Positions 6,090-59,909 of a stretch of DNA of 64,000 nucleotides are shown piece by piece. The stretch's first letter is position 1; the number at the start of each line of letters is the position of its first letter. The stretch lies in NCBI GenBank assembly GCA_030123625.1, contig CP126121.1:2334179-2398178 (forward strand), in the 5' to 3' direction. The translations under genes and the position numbers were made by a program. Under the pieces are notes generated by a model. The model ran no database searches. It saw only the letters and a list, made by a program, of their open reading frames with translations, and was not told the origin of the DNA. This DNA is from Nitrospira sp. (GTDB lineage: Bacteria > Nitrospirota > Nitrospiria > Nitrospirales > Nitrospiraceae).

Positions 6090-6923
6090 ATGGTCAATGC
6101 ATATGCCATCCATCCGGCGACCATTGTCGAGAAGATCCGGGAAGCCGAAGACATCAATACCTACCGCTTACGGCTTATCGATGAGCAGGCGCGGCAACAA
6201 TTTCGCTTCCAGGCAGGCCAGTTCAATATGGTGTACCTGTTCGGGGTCGGCGAGGTGGCGATTTCCATCGTTTCGGACCCGGATGAGCCGGAATTGCTGG
6301 ACCATACCATCCGAGCCGTCGGTCGGATCACGAAGGCGATCGCGGATCTTCGGACGAGCGACGTTTTGGGAATCCGAGGGCCGTTCGGACAAGGGTGGCC
6401 GCTGGAAGAGGCGCGCGGACGCAACGTCGTGATCGTCACAGGCGGCTTGGGATGTGCTCCGGTGGTTGGGGCTATCGAGTATATCTTCCGACGGCGAGAG
6501 CAATATGGTTCGATCAAAATCCTCCACGGCGTCAAAACGCCGCACGATCTTCTTTATCGCGAGCGATTCGATTCGTGGCGGCGCTTTCCTGATACAGAAG
6601 TATTGCTGACCAGCGACCAGCCGGACAAAAGTTGGAACTATCACGTCGGCGTCGTGACGGAACTGTTCGAGCTGGTATCGATCGACCGGCTGAAAAGCAT
6701 CGTGCTGATGTGCGGACCCGAGATCATGATGCGTTTGGGTGTGCCGATTCTTATCCGCCGCGGCATTCCTGCGGCGGCCATCTATGTCTCGCTGGAACGG
6801 CACATGGAGTGCGGGATCGGCCTGTGCGGCCATTGTCAGATGGGTCCGTACTTTGTGTGCAAAGACGGGCCGGTCATGCGTTATGACCGTGTGGCCCAGT
6901 GGCTGGGCCGGGTGGGAGTGTGA
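6090..6923 (+). CDS. hydG: Group 3b [NiFe] hydrogenase gamma subunit, FAD/NAD(P)H oxidoreductase
   Basis: This 277-residue protein belongs to the ferredoxin-NADP reductase-like family. An FAD-binding barrel ([20 protein letters not shown]) is followed by a nucleotide-binding domain ([14 protein letters not shown], and MCGPEIMM). A C-terminal 2Fe-2S site reads [12 protein letters not shown] followed by VCKDGPV. It is the NAD(P)H-facing subunit of the cytosolic bidirectional enzyme. The ATG at 6090 is preferred over an upstream TTG at 6042 because GAGG precedes it and homologues start near here. A heptamer repeat separates it from the delta-subunit gene. Confidence 0.92.
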
Positions 6924-6973
6924 AGCTGCAAGAGTAGATGGTTTATGGCAAATGGTCGATGAGGCTTGCCTCT

Positions 6974-7007
6974 GAGCTGTCAGCTATCGGCTATCAGTCA
7001 TCAGCTC
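6974..7007 (+). repeat. Heptanucleotide repeat, GCTATCA type
   Basis: Between the gamma and delta subunit genes the sequence reads as four consecutive 7-bp units: gctgtca, gctatcg, gctatca, gtcatca. A partial unit follows. The gap is only 105 bp and lies inside an operon. This array shares its 7-bp period, but not its unit, with the ACTCAGG-type arrays elsewhere in the window. Confidence 0.7.
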
Positions 7008-7028
7008 CTTGCGCATCCGTGAGGCGAG

Positions 7029-16354: not shown

Positions 16355-16370
16355 AACGCCGGAGGAGCCA

Positions 16371-16431
16371 TTGGTCAATGGTCACTTGTCGCTGGTGAAG
16401 CAAATGACCAAATGACTAATGACCAGTGACC
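16371..16431 (+). repeat. Imperfect inverted GGTCATT-type repeat between hypD and hypE
   Basis: The gap contains ggtcaatggtcact on the left and aatgaccagtgacc on the right. The reverse complement of the right arm (ggtcactggtcatt) pairs with the left arm apart from two bases. The units are near-copies of GGTCAYT with a 7-bp period, like other arrays of this window. In RNA it would form a hairpin between two operon genes. Confidence 0.6.
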
Positions 16432-16462
16432 GGCCGTTCTTCTCCAAATGTAAGAAAACACT

Positions 16463-17518
16463 ATGATCGACAACAGATCCTTCGAGCCAAGCTGCCCGTT
16501 GCCGATCTCGGCCCAAAGAACCGTGCAACTGGCGCATGGCGGAGGTGGTCGGCTCATGCAGGAGCTGATTCACGACGTATTCGTGCGGGCTTTTCAGAAC
16601 CCGATGCTGGCGCCCCTCCACGACGGCGCAACGTGGCCGGTTGAAAAAGGGATGCTCGCCTTCACCACCGATTCTTATGTGGTACGCCCGCTGTTCTTCC
16701 CCGGCGGCGACATCGGGAGTTTGGCAGTGAACGGTACGATTAACGATCTGGCCATGTGCGGCGCCAAGCCGCTCTATTTAAGTGTGGGATTCATCCTGGA
16801 AGAGGGACTCAGCCTGGACGTGCTGCGGCGAGTCGTGAGCTCGATGGCCGAAGCCGCACGGGCGGCGGGAGTGCCGATCGTGACCGGCGATACCAAGGTC
16901 GTGGATCGCGGCAAGGGCGATGGAATCTTCATCACTACGTCCGGCGTTGGTCTGGTGCCAGATGGTATCCGTGTGTTGCCGGCATTGATTGAGCCCGGTG
17001 ATGCGATCCTTGTGAGCGGCGATCTTGGCTCCCATGGCGTGGCCGTCCTCAGCGTACGAGAAGGACTGACGTTCGACGGCCATGTCGAAAGCGATTCAGC
17101 ACCGTTGCATCACATCGTGAGTGAGCTGATCGACAACGGCATTGAGATCCATTGCCTGCGCGACCTCACCCGCGGCGGACTGGCCAGTATATTAAACGAA
17201 CTGGCTGCGGCAGCAAAAGTCGGCATGGTGGTGGAGGAGCCCGCCGTTCCTGTGAGCGAACCGGTACGTGGAGCCTGTGAGCTGCTAGGACTCGATCCAT
17301 TGTACGTGGCGAACGAGGGACGATTCGTCGCGATGGTGCCGGATTCGCATGCAGAAGCTGCGCTCGCTGTCATGCGCCGGCACGAAGCGGCGAGGCAGGC
17401 GGCTCACATCGGCATGGTGACGGATCGGGATCCTCCAACGGTCGTCCTACGGACTGTTATCGGCACCCATCGTGTACTTGACTTGCTATCCGGCGAGCAA
17501 CTGCCGCGAATCTGCTAA
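16463..17518 (+). CDS. hypE: Hydrogenase expression/formation protein HypE
   Basis: This 351-residue protein of the PurM/AIR-synthase-like family contains AHGGGGRLMQELI near residue 25, FTTDSYVV, and NGTINDLAMCGAKP near residue 93. The C-terminus ends PRIC, with the cysteine that is carbamoylated by HypF and dehydrated to thiocyanate. It completes the set HypA, C, D, E and F in this locus. No clear ribosome-binding site is seen before the ATG. Confidence 0.96.
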   Translation: MIDNRSFEPSCPLPISAQRTVQLAHGGGGRLMQELIHDVFVRAFQNPMLAPLHDGATWPVEKGMLAFTTDSYVVRPLFFPGGDIGSLAVNGTINDLAMCGAKPLYLSVGFILEEGLSLDVLRRVVSSMAEAARAAGVPIVTGDTKVVDRGKGDGIFITTSGVGLVPDGIRVLPALIEPGDAILVSGDLGSHGVAVLSVREGLTFDGHVESDSAPLHHIVSELIDNGIEIHCLRDLTRGGLASILNELAAAAKVGMVVEEPAVPVSEPVRGACELLGLDPLYVANEGRFVAMVPDSHAEAALAVMRRHEAARQAAHIGMVTDRDPPTVVLRTVIGTHRVLDLLSGEQLPRIC

Positions 17519-17665: not shown

Positions 17666-18352
17666 GTGCGCTCGATCGGCCATGTCATAGCGGTCGGGGC
17701 GATCACTCTGTCGGCAATCTTAATGCTTTCGGCCTGCGTCTCGCCGGTCGAAAGCCTGTGGCCGCCGGCTCGGGACTTGTCTGCTCGGACCATCGTTGTC
17801 TCGCTCGATACCTGGCATGCGATGATCGCGTTCCCGATTCAGCAAGAAGATAGTGATCAACCATCAGTATTCAGTTCCGAGGAAGGTGTCTCCATTCAGC
17901 ACTCACCGCTCAGGACTCCGCACTCGTATGAGGAATGGGGCTACGCCGAGCGCGCCTGGTACTTGGAGGGAAAGACCGGCTTCATCGGGATCGTGCGGGC
18001 TCTGTTCTGGCCGACAGAAGGCGTTGTCGAAGTCGGTCACCATGATCGTGTGTGGGCGGACCGTACGCCGCAACCGCCCGCCGGGCGGTTCGAGTTTCGC
18101 GTGAGCGACGAGGGCTATCGGCGATTGCGCCTACATCTGCGTTCAACTCTATTGATGGAAGAACCAGTGGTCACCTTCGGGCAATCAGCGTTCTATCCGG
18201 CGAAGCGTTCGTACCATCTCTTTCACACCTGCCACCAGTATGCGGCGCAGGCGCTACGCGAGGCCGGCTTGCCGATCTCAGCGTTCGGAGCTTTCAATCG
18301 GACAAGCCTCGTTTGGCAGCTGCGGCGTGCCGTGCAGATTGCCGAGAAATAG
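17666..18352 (+). CDS. DUF2459-family lipoprotein with an internal repeat insertion
   Basis: This 228-residue protein starts at GTG and has a lipoprotein signal (LMLSACVSP). The DUF2459 pattern follows: TIVVSLDTWHAMIAFP, SYEEWGYAERAWYLEG and a C-terminal YHLFHTCHQYAAQALREAG, whose Cys-His might be catalytic or metal-binding. Between the first two conserved blocks (about residues 66-87) lies a low-complexity stretch SIQHSPLRTPHS, encoded by a heptamer repeat element. DUF2459 proteins are of unknown role, probably envelope enzymes of papain-like fold. There is no clear operon partner. Confidence 0.8.
   Translation: MRSIGHVIAVGAITLSAILMLSACVSPVESLWPPARDLSARTIVVSLDTWHAMIAFPIQQEDSDQPSVFSSEEGVSIQHSPLRTPHSYEEWGYAERAWYLEGKTGFIGIVRALFWPTEGVVEVGHHDRVWADRTPQPPAGRFEFRVSDEGYRRLRLHLRSTLLMEEPVVTFGQSAFYPAKRSYHLFHTCHQYAAQALREAGLPISAFGAFNRTSLVWQLRRAVQIAEK
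17861..17927 (+). repeat. ACTCAGG-type heptamer element inside the DUF2459 gene
   Basis: The coding strand reads catcagtattcagttccg, then attcagcactcaccgctc and aggactccgcactc. These are variants of the ACTCAGG/ATTCAGC unit seen in the ATPase gene and the pyruvate dehydrogenase operon. The reading frame stays open through it and yields the peptide SIQHSPLRTPHS. Confidence 0.65.
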
Positions 18353-36572: not shown

Positions 36573-39452
36573 ATGGAGAAAATAGAGAAAGGAATCCCAG
36601 CGTCTCGTGAAATGAAGGCGACAAAGGCTTGGCACGCCCTGTCCCCACAAATCCTGGCTGATGAACTTCTGACCGACCTCGATATGGGTTTGAATGTCGA
36701 TGAAGCTGCCCGTCGGCAAGCACAGGAAGGGCCCAATGAACTGCCCGAGTCTCCTCCTCCCTCGCCGCTGAAACTCTTTCTCTCGCAGTTCTCGAGTCTT
36801 CTCGTGTGGGTGTTGATCGGGGCGGCCGTTGTGTCCGGTTTGTTGGAAGACTGGATCGATGCGGCGGCGATTCTGGCGATCGTGTTTCTCAACGGCGTGC
36901 TGGGATTTGTGCAGGAATTCCGGGCGGAGCAATCGCTGGCGGCGCTGCGCAAGATGTCGGTCGCGATGGCCCGCGTCATTCGCGCGGGCACGCTGCAGTC
37001 CATTCCGGCACGAGAACTGGTCAGAGGGGATGTGATTGCCCTCGAGGCGGGCGACCGTATTCCGGCCGATTCACGCTTGCTCTATGCCACGAATTTCCAA
37101 GCTCAAGAAGCTTCACTCACCGGCGAATCGACACCTGTACGAAAACAGGCGGAGCTGCTCGATACCGAGCGACCGCTTGCGGATCAATGCAACATGGTCT
37201 TCATGGGCACCGAGGCCGTCTCCGGCAAGGCCCGTGGGCTGGTAGTGGCGACAGGCCTTGGAACGGAACTGGGCAAGATCGCCGCCATGATCCGAAAGGC
37301 CGCTGAAGCGGAGCGTGCCGAAACACCGCTGCAACGACGGTTGGAACAATTCAGCTATACACTCCTGTGGCTGGCGCTCGGTGTGGTCACGGTCGTGTTC
37401 GCTCTCGGGTATCTCAGGGGAGAACCGCTGGTGGAGATGTTCCTCATATCGGTGAGCCTCGCTGTGGCGACTGTGCCCGAGGGCCTTCCCGCCGTCGTCA
37501 CGATTACATTGGCTTTGGGCGTGACCAGGATGGCCAAGCGGCATGCGTTGATTCGTAAGCTGCCCGCAGTCGAAACGCTGGGTTCGGCCACCGTGATCTG
37601 CACCGACAAGACCGGCACCTTGACGAAGAATGAGATGACGGTGACCCATGTGATCATGGGTGACTCTCACTTCGAGGTGACCGGCGAGGGATATGAGCCG
37701 TCTGGGGAGATCCGCGAAGTCTGTGCTGAGTCAAAAGTCCTGAGTGCTGAGTTTTCAAGTCAAGGATTCGATCGTTACTCTGATAACTCAGAACTCAAGA
37801 CTCAGCACTCAGGACTCAGGACTCAGGACTCAGCATTCAGGACTGAGCATTCAGCACCCAGCACCCAGCACTCAGGACTTCCCCCTGGGCTGCGCGATCT
37901 TCTCACCGCCGCCGTGCTGTGCAACGGCGCGACATTGCGACAAGAGAACGGGACTTGGCGGATCATCGGCGATCCGACGGAAGCCGCGCTGCTCGTGGCG
38001 GCGGCGAAGGTCGGTCTCACGAAGACGGAGTTGGAGCGTCGGGCGCCGCTGGACAGAGAAGTTCCGTTCGATGCGGAGCGGAAAATGATGACGATCGTTC
38101 GCCGAACGGAGCAAGGCCGCATCGCTTACTGCAAAGGAGCGCCCGATGTCTTGCTGGAACGTTGCGCTGCGCGTCTCACGCTGGATGGCCGGACCGAAGC
38201 ACTGGATGACGAGCAGAGGCGACTGATCGGCGAAGCCGACGCGTCTTTGGCACAACGAGCCCTCCGCGTGCTGGCCGTCGCGTATAAGCCCGTCGGCCGA
38301 CCGGCGAGCGCGGACGAAGAGGTGGAGCGGGATTTGATCTTTCTCGGCCTCTTCGCAATGAAGGATCCCTTGCGATCCGAAGCAGTAGAGGCGGTGCGCC
38401 TCTGTCGGGACGCGGGCATCCGTACCGCCATGATCACGGGGGATCACAAGGAGACGGCGATCGCGATTGCCCGTGAATTAGGCCTGCATCGCGACGGCGG
38501 GATGGCGTTGTCCGGGGCGGAGCTGGACGGCTTGACCGACGAGGAATTAACGCAGCGTGTAGAGCGAATCAGTGTATACGCCCGCGTGTCGGCCGAGCAC
38601 AAGCTTCGGATCGTCCAAGCGTGGAAGCGGAACGGGGCCATTGTCGCCATGACCGGTGACGGGGTCAACGACGCGCCGGCCATCAAGGCGGCGGACATCG
38701 GTGTGGCGATGGGGATGGCCGGCACCGACGTGACAAAAGAGGCTTCGGATATCGTGGTGACGGACGACAACTTCGCCTCGATCGCCGCCGCGGTTGAGGA
38801 GGGCAGAGGCATCTTCGACAACATCAGGAAGGCGGTGCATTTCCTCCTGTCGTGCAACATCGGCGAAGTGTTGGTCATGCTCTTTGCCGCATTGCTCGGC
38901 TTGCCGCTGCCGCTCCTGCCGATTCAAATTCTGTGGATGAATCTCGTAACCGACGGCTTTCCCGCCCTCGCCCTGGCGGTCGATCCGAAAGCGCCGGATC
39001 TGATGCGGCAGCCGCCGCGACAGACCCGGGCGCGCTTACTGGAGGGGAGAAGGCTGTGGATCGTGGCCGGCGAAGGCATGATGCTGGCGGCCATTGCCTT
39101 GAGCGTGTTTTCGTACAGCTTGTTTGTCTGGCAACAGCCGATCGATCAGGCTCGGACGGTGACGTTCAGCGTGATGGTCGCCGCTCAGTTGGTGCATGCC
39201 TTTAATTGCAGAAGCGATCGTTGGTCGCTGTTTCAGGTGGGAGTGACGACGAATCGCTCGCTCATTTGGGCTGTCCTCGTGTCTCTTGCCCTGCAAATCG
39301 CCATTCTCGCGACCCCGGTCATGCAACCGATCTTCAAGGTCGCGCCCTTGCCGCTGGAAGATTGGGAACTGCTGGCGGCCATGACGTTTCTTCCATTGGT
39401 GATCGTAGAAACGATCAAATGGCTTCGAAGGCGGCCGGTCCTCAGCGTTTAG
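36573..39452 (+). CDS. P-type cation-transporting ATPase (P2A-like) with an in-frame repeat insertion
   Basis: This 959-residue pump has the N-terminal cation-ATPase domain ([20 protein letters not shown]), the actuator motif TGESTPVRK, membrane helix 4 with PEGLPAVVT and the phosphorylation site [16 protein letters not shown]. The hinge [21 protein letters not shown] and six C-terminal helices complete it. PEGL and [12 protein letters not shown] suggest a Ca2+/Mg2+-type P2 pump. Residues about 384-436 ([10 protein letters not shown] to QHSGL) are an insertion encoded by a heptamer array, placed between the phosphorylation region and the nucleotide-binding domain; this explains the extra length over a usual 890-900 residues. 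The start is 79 bp from the divergent methyltransferase start and has no clear ribosome-binding site. Confidence 0.93.
37723..37880 (+). repeat. ACTCAGG heptamer element inside the ATPase gene
   Basis: A left arm in reverse orientation (tgctgagtc, then agtcctgagtgctgag) is followed by a spacer beginning ttttcaag. The right arm consists of 13 consecutive 7-bp units from 37786 to 37876 (actcaga, actcaag, actcagc, actcagg three times, then variants). The reading frame stays open. The right arm encodes a heptapeptide repeat of the S-x-L-R-T-Q-H type. Confidence 0.85.
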
Positions 39453-40854: not shown

Positions 40855-40885
40855 GGAGTCCTCGCTTATCGTTCGTTGTCACTTA

Positions 40886-40995
40886 CAGTGCTGAGTGCTG
40901 AGTCCTGAGTGCTGAGTATTCAAGCTGGCGTTTATCGCTTTCCCCGCAGACTTTGTTATTCATCACTCAGGACTTAGGACTCAGCACTCAGCACT
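40886..40995. repeat. Inverted heptamer element between aceF and lpdA
   Basis: The left arm agtgctgagtgctgagtcct is repeated as an exact 20-base inverted copy on the right (40976-40995). The spacer starts tattcaag, like the ttttcaag spacer of the ATPase element. It fills almost the whole gap between aceF and lpdA and could fold into a strong RNA hairpin inside the operon transcript. Confidence 0.85.
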
Positions 40996-42384: not shown

Positions 42385-42457
42385 ATTCACTCCCATTCAC
42401 TCAGCGCTCCGCGCTCCGCACTCAGTCCTCCGCACTCAGTCCTCAGCACTCACTACT
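42385..42457. repeat. CACTCAG heptamer array between aceE and aceF
   Basis: Units such as cactcag, cgctccg, cactcag, tcctccg, cactcag, tcctcag and cactcac follow each other at a 7-bp period directly behind the aceE stop. This is a second copy of the ACTCAGG family in the same operon. Confidence 0.75.
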
Positions 42458-58964: not shown

Positions 58965-59909
58965 ATGACCATGTCGCCACGAGCGCTGATCATACTGAGC
59001 ATGAGCTTGCTCCTGCCGGGACCTATAGATCCCGCGTTCTCCGATACCCATGACAAAGAAAGTTCAACGGAAGCGCCTGCTCCGCGCCCACAACGTCCTC
59101 CCCCTGCCTCCGACGGTCAGCCGGCACCGACTAAGCCACCGACGGACGTGAAGCCTCAGTCCTCACCCGCTCCGACGAAGACGGACACATCAACTGATCA
59201 CAAAGAAGTCGCGCCGGAGAAGCCCGCGCCGCCCAAGCCATCGACGGACGCGAAGCCGCAGTCCCCACCCAGTCCTCCGACGAAATCGGACTCGACCGAT
59301 CACAAAGAAGTCACGCCGGAGAAACATGCGCCGACTAAGCCACCGACGGAAGGGAAGGCGCAATCCGCACCCGCTCCGGCAACGAAGGCGGACTCACAAC
59401 CGGCTGAATCTGAGAGTAAGGAAAAAGAAAAAGAAAAAGAACAGACCGCCAAAAGGCCCCTAGGTTCACTGATTTTGTCGGTCAAGCTTGCGCTGATGGG
59501 GGATCCACGACTGTTCCGCTACGAGATTGAAGTGGGAGACGACCAGCAAACCGTGACCCTGGCAGGACGTGTCTCGACCGAAGAAGAAAAAACGGCTGCG
59601 ACAGAAATCGCGCAAGCCGTCCCGGGTGTCAAGGCCGTGGTCAACCAGCTTGCCGTCGAGAAAGACCTTGCGAAGACGCTGTTGAAGAAACAAGATGAAA
59701 CCCTCACGACCTTGATCAAAGAACGTTTCTCCAAAAGCGCGACCCTGAAAGCAGCCAACTTCGAAGTGAAGACTGAGGACGGTGTCGTTCAGCTCAACGG
59801 AACGGTGCGTTTCCAGGTCACGGCTCTCGAAGCCGCTGAGACGGCCCGTCAAGTGCCCGGTGTCCGAGCAGTGAACACCGAAAAGATACGGCTGGAGGGC
59901 GAGAGCTGA
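58965..59909 (+). CDS. Exported BON-domain protein with Pro-rich tandem repeats
   Basis: This 314-residue protein has a signal peptide (IILSMSLLLPGPIDPAFS). A low-complexity region at about residues 35-150 contains three copies of a unit of roughly 35 residues with the pattern KPPTD-VKPQS-SP...TDHKEV-PEK. Two BON domains follow, about residues 165-232 and 240-312 (ILSVKLALMGDPRLFRYEIE, then VQLNGTVRFQVTA). BON domains may bind membranes. The Pro/Lys linker could span the periplasm or cell wall, as in TonB-like linkers. GGAGGG lies before the ATG. The MFS gene overlaps its stop by one base. Confidence 0.85.
   Translation: MTMSPRALIILSMSLLLPGPIDPAFSDTHDKESSTEAPAPRPQRPPPASDGQPAPTKPPTDVKPQSSPAPTKTDTSTDHKEVAPEKPAPPKPSTDAKPQSPPSPPTKSDSTDHKEVTPEKHAPTKPPTEGKAQSAPAPATKADSQPAESESKEKEKEKEQTAKRPLGSLILSVKLALMGDPRLFRYEIEVGDDQQTVTLAGRVSTEEEKTAATEIAQAVPGVKAVVNQLAVEKDLAKTLLKKQDETLTTLIKERFSKSATLKAANFEVKTEDGVVQLNGTVRFQVTALEAAETARQVPGVRAVNTEKIRLEGES

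Follow-up and report, generated by a model that had tools for sequence, protein, structure and literature searches.

How did a heptanucleotide repeat become protein sequence within an ion pump of Nitrospira, and from which kind of DNA did it come? The question arose in a window of 64,000 nucleotides from a Nitrospira sp. genome (contig CP126121.1, positions 2,334,179 to 2,398,178), in which an open reading frame of 959 aa carries an inverted repeat of ACTCAG-type units (Table 1). The Pfam domains of its product (Cation_ATPase_N, E1-E2_ATPase, Cation_ATPase, Hydrolase and Cation_ATPase_C) and the closest solved structures, SPCA1 and Listeria lmo0841, identified a P-type cation ATPase; the best named matches were Nitrospira species. 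A first-pass annotation of this DNA had described thirteen units and an inverted left arm, in frame between the phosphorylation region and the nucleotide-binding domain, and this description was confirmed. TRF counted 13.4 units in the right arm with a unit match of about 80 %, i.e., the units are imperfect, and positions 37723-37755 with the inverted left arm were 85 % complementary to positions 37797-37829. In the protein, the element follows the DKTGT phosphorylation motif and precedes the N-domain PF13246 (residues 448-532). With two mismatches or fewer, ACTCAGSACTCAG had 30 matches in the window, where 2.3 were expected, and none of 100 shuffles reached this number. Folded as single-stranded DNA, the element region had a z-score of -5.8.

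Table 1 Features of the window that carry or concern the heptanucleotide repeat
Feature	Position	Strand	Basis
P-type cation (P2A, SPCA/SERCA-like) ATPase gene bearing the element	36573..39452	+	ORF, Pfam, closest solved structures
Left arm (TGA-type, CTGAGTS), read as AESKVLSAE	37723..37752	+	frame counted from ORF start
Inter-arm loop	37753..37785	+	
Right arm, 13 ACTCAGS-type units, heptapeptide repeat when translated	37786..37879	+	TRF, L032 comparison
Repeat-derived linker, about residues 385-434, predicted disordered	37725..37875	+	AlphaFold2
Non-coding hairpin filling most of the E2-lpd gap, pyruvate dehydrogenase-like operon	40861..40994	.	
ACTCAG-type array in the E1-E2 gene gap	42393..42453	.	
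Degenerate short array, 4 units, in a weakly scored predicted gene, read IQHSPLRTP	17894..17920	+	

The segment between the conserved blocks comprises 52 residues (381-432) in the window protein and 7-8 residues in human SPCA1. AlphaFold2, run with 18 aligned sequences, gave a pLDDT of about 26 across most of the repeat-derived residues, so the linker is predicted to be unstructured. It lies where the nucleotide-binding domain begins, in a loop that is permissive. In the left arm a TGA recurs every seven bases, and the sole unit position where it would be in frame (37734-37736) reads AAA. The string AAAGTG occurs at the same unit position in some intergenic copies as well, so this AAA may or may not be a mutated TGA.

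The genome, a single contig of 4.69 Mb, was surveyed for ACTCAG arrays with gene calls from a home-made hexamer scorer, a simple predictor. Arrays were present at 44 places: 32 in gaps between co-directional genes, nine within genes, two in divergent gaps and one in a convergent gap. The annotation had asked for such a count of coding against intergenic copies; it stands at nine to 35, with a bias in orientation that is described below. Co-directional gaps of up to 300 nt make up 18 % of the intergenic DNA, but hold 27 of the 35 non-coding copies (p = 4e-14). At 30 of the 44 places left and right arms were paired in the order of a hairpin, at none in the opposite order. The copies in spacers had a higher predicted folding tendency than other gaps (median z -2.7 versus -0.2). 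In 24 short gaps with a median length of 87.5 nt, the arms started a median of 7 nt past the stop codon and finished a median of 11.5 nt before the next start. The usual location of the element is the stop-to-start gap between co-directional genes, where it is arranged as a hairpin. The annotation had recognised neither this location nor the presence of such linkers in histidine kinases. Intrinsic terminators at operon ends have a different appearance: inspection of the sequences revealed no T run after the right arms, and the distribution of the non-coding copies, 32 of 35 co-directional and a single one convergent, argues against this function. A difference in ribosome-binding sites beside the elements (6 of 24 versus 40 of 110) is not telling. 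The spacer hairpin may act in the mRNA and couple or protect the neighbouring cistrons.

ACTCAG is one of several units used in this way. An unbiased sample of 644 kb, the window and 29 stretches of 20 kb across the genome, was screened for period-7 tracts at a threshold of 15 matches in 21; 16 were located in co-directional gaps, one in a divergent gap and none in a convergent gap, and lags of 4, 5, 8 and 12 yielded no tracts in the same sample. The tracts belonged to the heptamer families ACTCAGS, ATTGACC, CGTGAAA, ATGGTTN, AGGTTTG and CAGCTAT. Within the window, a GGTCAAT/ATTGACC hairpin (16355-16555) and a spacer of the CAGCTAT type (6924-7028) lie in co-directional gaps. The same period-7 enrichment was present in sampled stretches of G012 and of N. 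moscoviensis, and zero tracts were obtained in those of G055, a member of another family of the order. ACTCAG arrays occurred in 24 of 34 other genomes of the genus and in none of 24 genomes from other genera of the order. A stricter hairpin pattern, applied to the phylum, added one more genus of this family to those with copies; this exact pattern was too strict and missed the genome of the window itself. An in-phase stop trinucleotide was more frequent in the period-7 tracts than in column-permuted arrays (0.66 versus 0.46; 0 of 300, with families that are not independent). That all families are built around such a stop was considered as a general rule and rejected, as it is broken by a period-9 family. 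This family, GGTTTGTCT ... AGACAAACC, has a unit free of stop codons and forms hairpins between co-directional genes, both in N. moscoviensis and in the genome of the window (L227:3981-4119, L227:14329-14479, L184:1582-1711).

Most Nitrospira orthologues of the ATPase have a linker at this site, as do most of the nearest relatives of the window protein, relative to which the addition is not new. Many of the relatives compared are metagenome bins. Period-7 DNA (at least 14 of 21 matches at lag 7) was found in 42 of 54 distinct Nitrospira linkers, compared to 2 of the 209 control segments taken from these genes; the remaining 12 linkers had no clear period of 7. Lag 7 with its multiple 14 was the one strong periodicity of the orthologous linkers, other lags remained low. 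Together with the 35 non-coding places and the reverse-complement arms, this substantiates the view that a non-coding repeat became protein sequence. The repeats differ between species: ACTCAG in some linkers, CGTGAAA in others, GTCAATG in L048, and the rest unclassed, family labels being assigned by unit counts and by eye. At this site, the linker of N. moscoviensis (L074, SPALPLEGGGEGGGEDDRGDD) looks like a palindromic repeat of another, G+C-rich kind. A quick tree of 68 ATPases, built with the linker left out, required about 17 changes of linker family; for the ACTCAG state alone there were 11 changes, at least nine of them forced by well-supported branches. Close neighbours on the tree carried unlike linkers (L089/L100, L111/L112). 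Since ACTCAG-type linkers are scattered over the Nitrospira tree among linkers of other repeats, the segment appears to be old and to have been replaced many times. Short linkers of about 14-20 residues occurred in the outgroups and in two deep Nitrospira groups. The hairpin is kept inside the ATPase gene in some orthologues and lost in others, thus a role of the hairpin within the gene is not supported, and the ATPase seems to need only a tolerated linker.

The first-pass annotation had expected an insertion with an empty site in orthologous genes. The alignment of the orthologues did not reveal this: linkers are present genus-wide, L042 retains a remnant, and a pristine empty site was absent among the close relatives compared. 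A recent clean insertion was discarded because the linkers span the genus. As a sign of origin at the protein level, the annotation had named a segment common to all orthologues and written in non-repeat codons; the segment proved widespread, but its codons are those of a repeat, often of another one.

The best-matching relative, L032, has a linker that is exactly 63 nt, or nine units and 21 residues, shorter than that of the window. The claim that the element adds about 52 residues came close in relation to human SPCA1, with a net length of about 44 residues, but fell to these 21 extra residues in relation to L032. The net gain of nine units was specific to the window sequence among those compared, and probably arose by replication slippage. 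All aligned cassette bases of the two sequences were identical, 53 of 53 before the array and 32 of 32 within, while the flanks were 87-90 % identical. L071, a Nitrospira sp. bin, has the linker of L032, whose genome is ranked in the same genus. The nearest relative on the tree, L098, shares 91 % DNA identity with the window gene, yet its loop differs. Because other identical stretches of 60 bases exist elsewhere in the ATPase gene, these comparisons are only suggestive of an exchange of the cassette between lineages.

Turnover was also evident at a non-coding site. The E2-lpd junction of the window contains an ACTCAG hairpin, while a relative with 94 % identity in Lpd has a different short-period repeat. 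A degenerate repeat was located there in G012, none in G062 and G033, and a CGTGAAA-like remnant in others. Gain, loss and replacement thus take place in spacers as well.

Among the coding copies, six array sites were in five hybrid histidine kinases of a family that is strongly expanded here (L143:3088-3146 and 6518-6600, L144, L157, L158, L159), each between the histidine-kinase ATPase domain and the receiver domain; the domains were assigned by Pfam for the L157 protein. ACTCAG repeats occupied this junction in some paralogues and relatives (L271, L296, L298, L305); L272 had an ATGGTTG/CCATTCA repeat there, and L247 and L281 showed no clear one. G010 (L291) encodes kinase and receiver in two genes, and the TGA that ends the kinase gene is part of an ACTCAG-type left arm, AAGTCCTGAGTCCTG; the two are fused in G016 (L292), with no element between them. 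With one case each, a gene fusion through the spacer is only suggested, and the split genes, a single case, were too little to serve as proof of a spacer-to-linker fusion. The repeats inside the ion-pump gene and several sensor kinases should be translated into disordered linkers.

Coding copies follow a rule of orientation that the annotation had derived from the stop codons of one strand and that could be refined. The 5' arm, which bears the TGA, had a mean of 1.7 units in the nine coding copies and of 3.0 units in co-directional spacers; for the stop-free 3' arm, the means were 5.3 and 3.5 units (p = 0.004). The TGA-bearing arm is short in genes because three successive TGA units hit all frames, and the ACTCAG strand is tolerated because it lacks stops and encodes one heptapeptide in any frame.

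We consider it very probable that the ATPase segment is a translated operon-spacer repeat which is old, was repeatedly replaced and is longer here, and that it belongs to a lineage-specific class of period-7 inverted-repeat spacers; this high confidence applies to both statements jointly. In operons, such spacers could form an mRNA hairpin that begins shortly after a stop codon and ends shortly ahead of the following start codon. As 7 is coprime to 3, a heptamer array runs through all three frames and, when free of stops, specifies one and the same peptide whatever the frame of entry. An array without an in-frame stop could stay inside a gene as an unstructured linker, and changes in its length would be tolerated only if three units (21 nt, 7 residues), or a multiple thereof, are gained or lost. 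The ATPase copy would be an early arrival; in other species, unrelated heptamer spacers would have taken its place many times, perhaps via recombination or templated repair, and in the lineage of the window slippage may have made the array nine units longer than in the best-matching relative. The kinase/receiver junction of hybrid histidine kinases would undergo the same capture. Non-coding spacer DNA would thus have a testable path to new protein sequence, and the origins of linkers would be traceable, as different repeats refill the site in related species. The hairpin spacers apparently represent an undescribed class in operons of an environmentally important nitrifier genus; an earlier description for Nitrospira was not found in the open papers searched. 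A bolder and rather unlikely variant regards the operon spacers of Nitrospira as exchangeable cassettes. Family-specific hairpins would be written into gene junctions and swapped at fixed sites, either by some unknown active process or through selection by a factor that binds heptamers; the same process would remodel protein linkers and help to fuse adjacent kinase and regulator genes.

Dispersed copies with inverted arms that also reside in frame within genes would be expected from a mobile palindromic element, a MITE or a relative of the Rickettsia palindromic elements, whose transposition products the copies would be. We regard this origin as improbable. The loops of 30 paired copies showed no clear excess of words of at least nine bases over shuffled loops, so that hardly more than the heptamer is common to them; the arm length is variable, and unrelated heptamers occupy the same site. 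The unrelated loops argue against a transposition of whole elements. Of the features of a MITE, which has terminal inverted repeats with target-site duplications and is related to a transposon, inverted arms are present. Palindromes that are translated as parts of genes are known from the Rickettsia palindromic elements (review PMC10969869), and the small palindromic repeats of Nitrospira likewise reside in frame inside unrelated genes and add a peptide. The Rickettsia families measure about 150 bp, each with a conserved peptide; a common full-length sequence or peptide was missing in the Nitrospira loops, which share the 7-nt unit only, and the Nitrospira site is refilled by unrelated families.

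The translated operon-spacer repeat has a second counterpart in the TAACTGA heptamer repeats of Beggiatoaceae, Cyanobacteria and Bacteroidetes, which are intergenic with some ORF overlaps (MacGregor 2015, PMC4679880). Both kinds form intergenic heptamer arrays just upstream of start codons, with a minority overlapping ORFs, and in both, stops fall in every frame of one orientation while the other is translatable. TAACTGA is a single sequence in almost exclusively direct repeats, whereas the Nitrospira unit is ACTCAGS, one of several families, and the repeats are mostly inverted-repeat hairpins between co-directional genes, with captured and serially replaced linkers. Unrelated loops and the repeated replacement at a fixed site set the element apart from both the Rickettsia and the TAACTGA repeats. 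The STRR heptanucleotide repeats of cyanobacteria and long simple sequence repeats are known as tandem arrays (PMC4679880, introduction). They resemble the Nitrospira arrays as heptanucleotide tandem repeats of bacterial genomes. To our knowledge, they have not been described as hairpin operon spacers captured as linkers. Repeats of the REP/ERIC type are located in co-transcribed intercistronic regions and are capable of forming mRNA hairpins. Their conserved core has tens of bases; the core in Nitrospira is a heptamer that differs between families.

Linker lengths within a family were mostly 7 residues or multiples apart (51/58/65 and 61/68/89 residues), with 69, 70 and 74 as exceptions. These lengths bear on a phase-variation switch, in which gain or loss of a single heptamer would shift the frame and turn the ATPase on or off. 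Thirteen copies of a 7-nt unit in a coding region have the design of a contingency locus, but the imperfect units reduce slippage, the frame is open in most orthologues and the lengths within families differ mostly by 7 or 21 residues, so we hold such a switch to be very improbable. Growth of a disordered linker by slippage of its own codons, with a coincidental likeness to intergenic DNA, would suit the disordered, low-complexity sequence and the nine-unit growth, but is scarcely credible in view of the inverted arm, of 35 non-coding copies with the ACTCAG unit, of a period that is 7 instead of a multiple of 3, and of the other heptamer families that occupy this site.

Two further repeats were observed within genes. 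In an Lhr-like helicase (L171:2-4384), short-period repeats of different families form a mosaic in the linker that precedes the last winged-helix domain. The window also contains a tandem repeat with a period of 102 and 2.6 copies (59119-59378) within the predicted gene 58965-59909.
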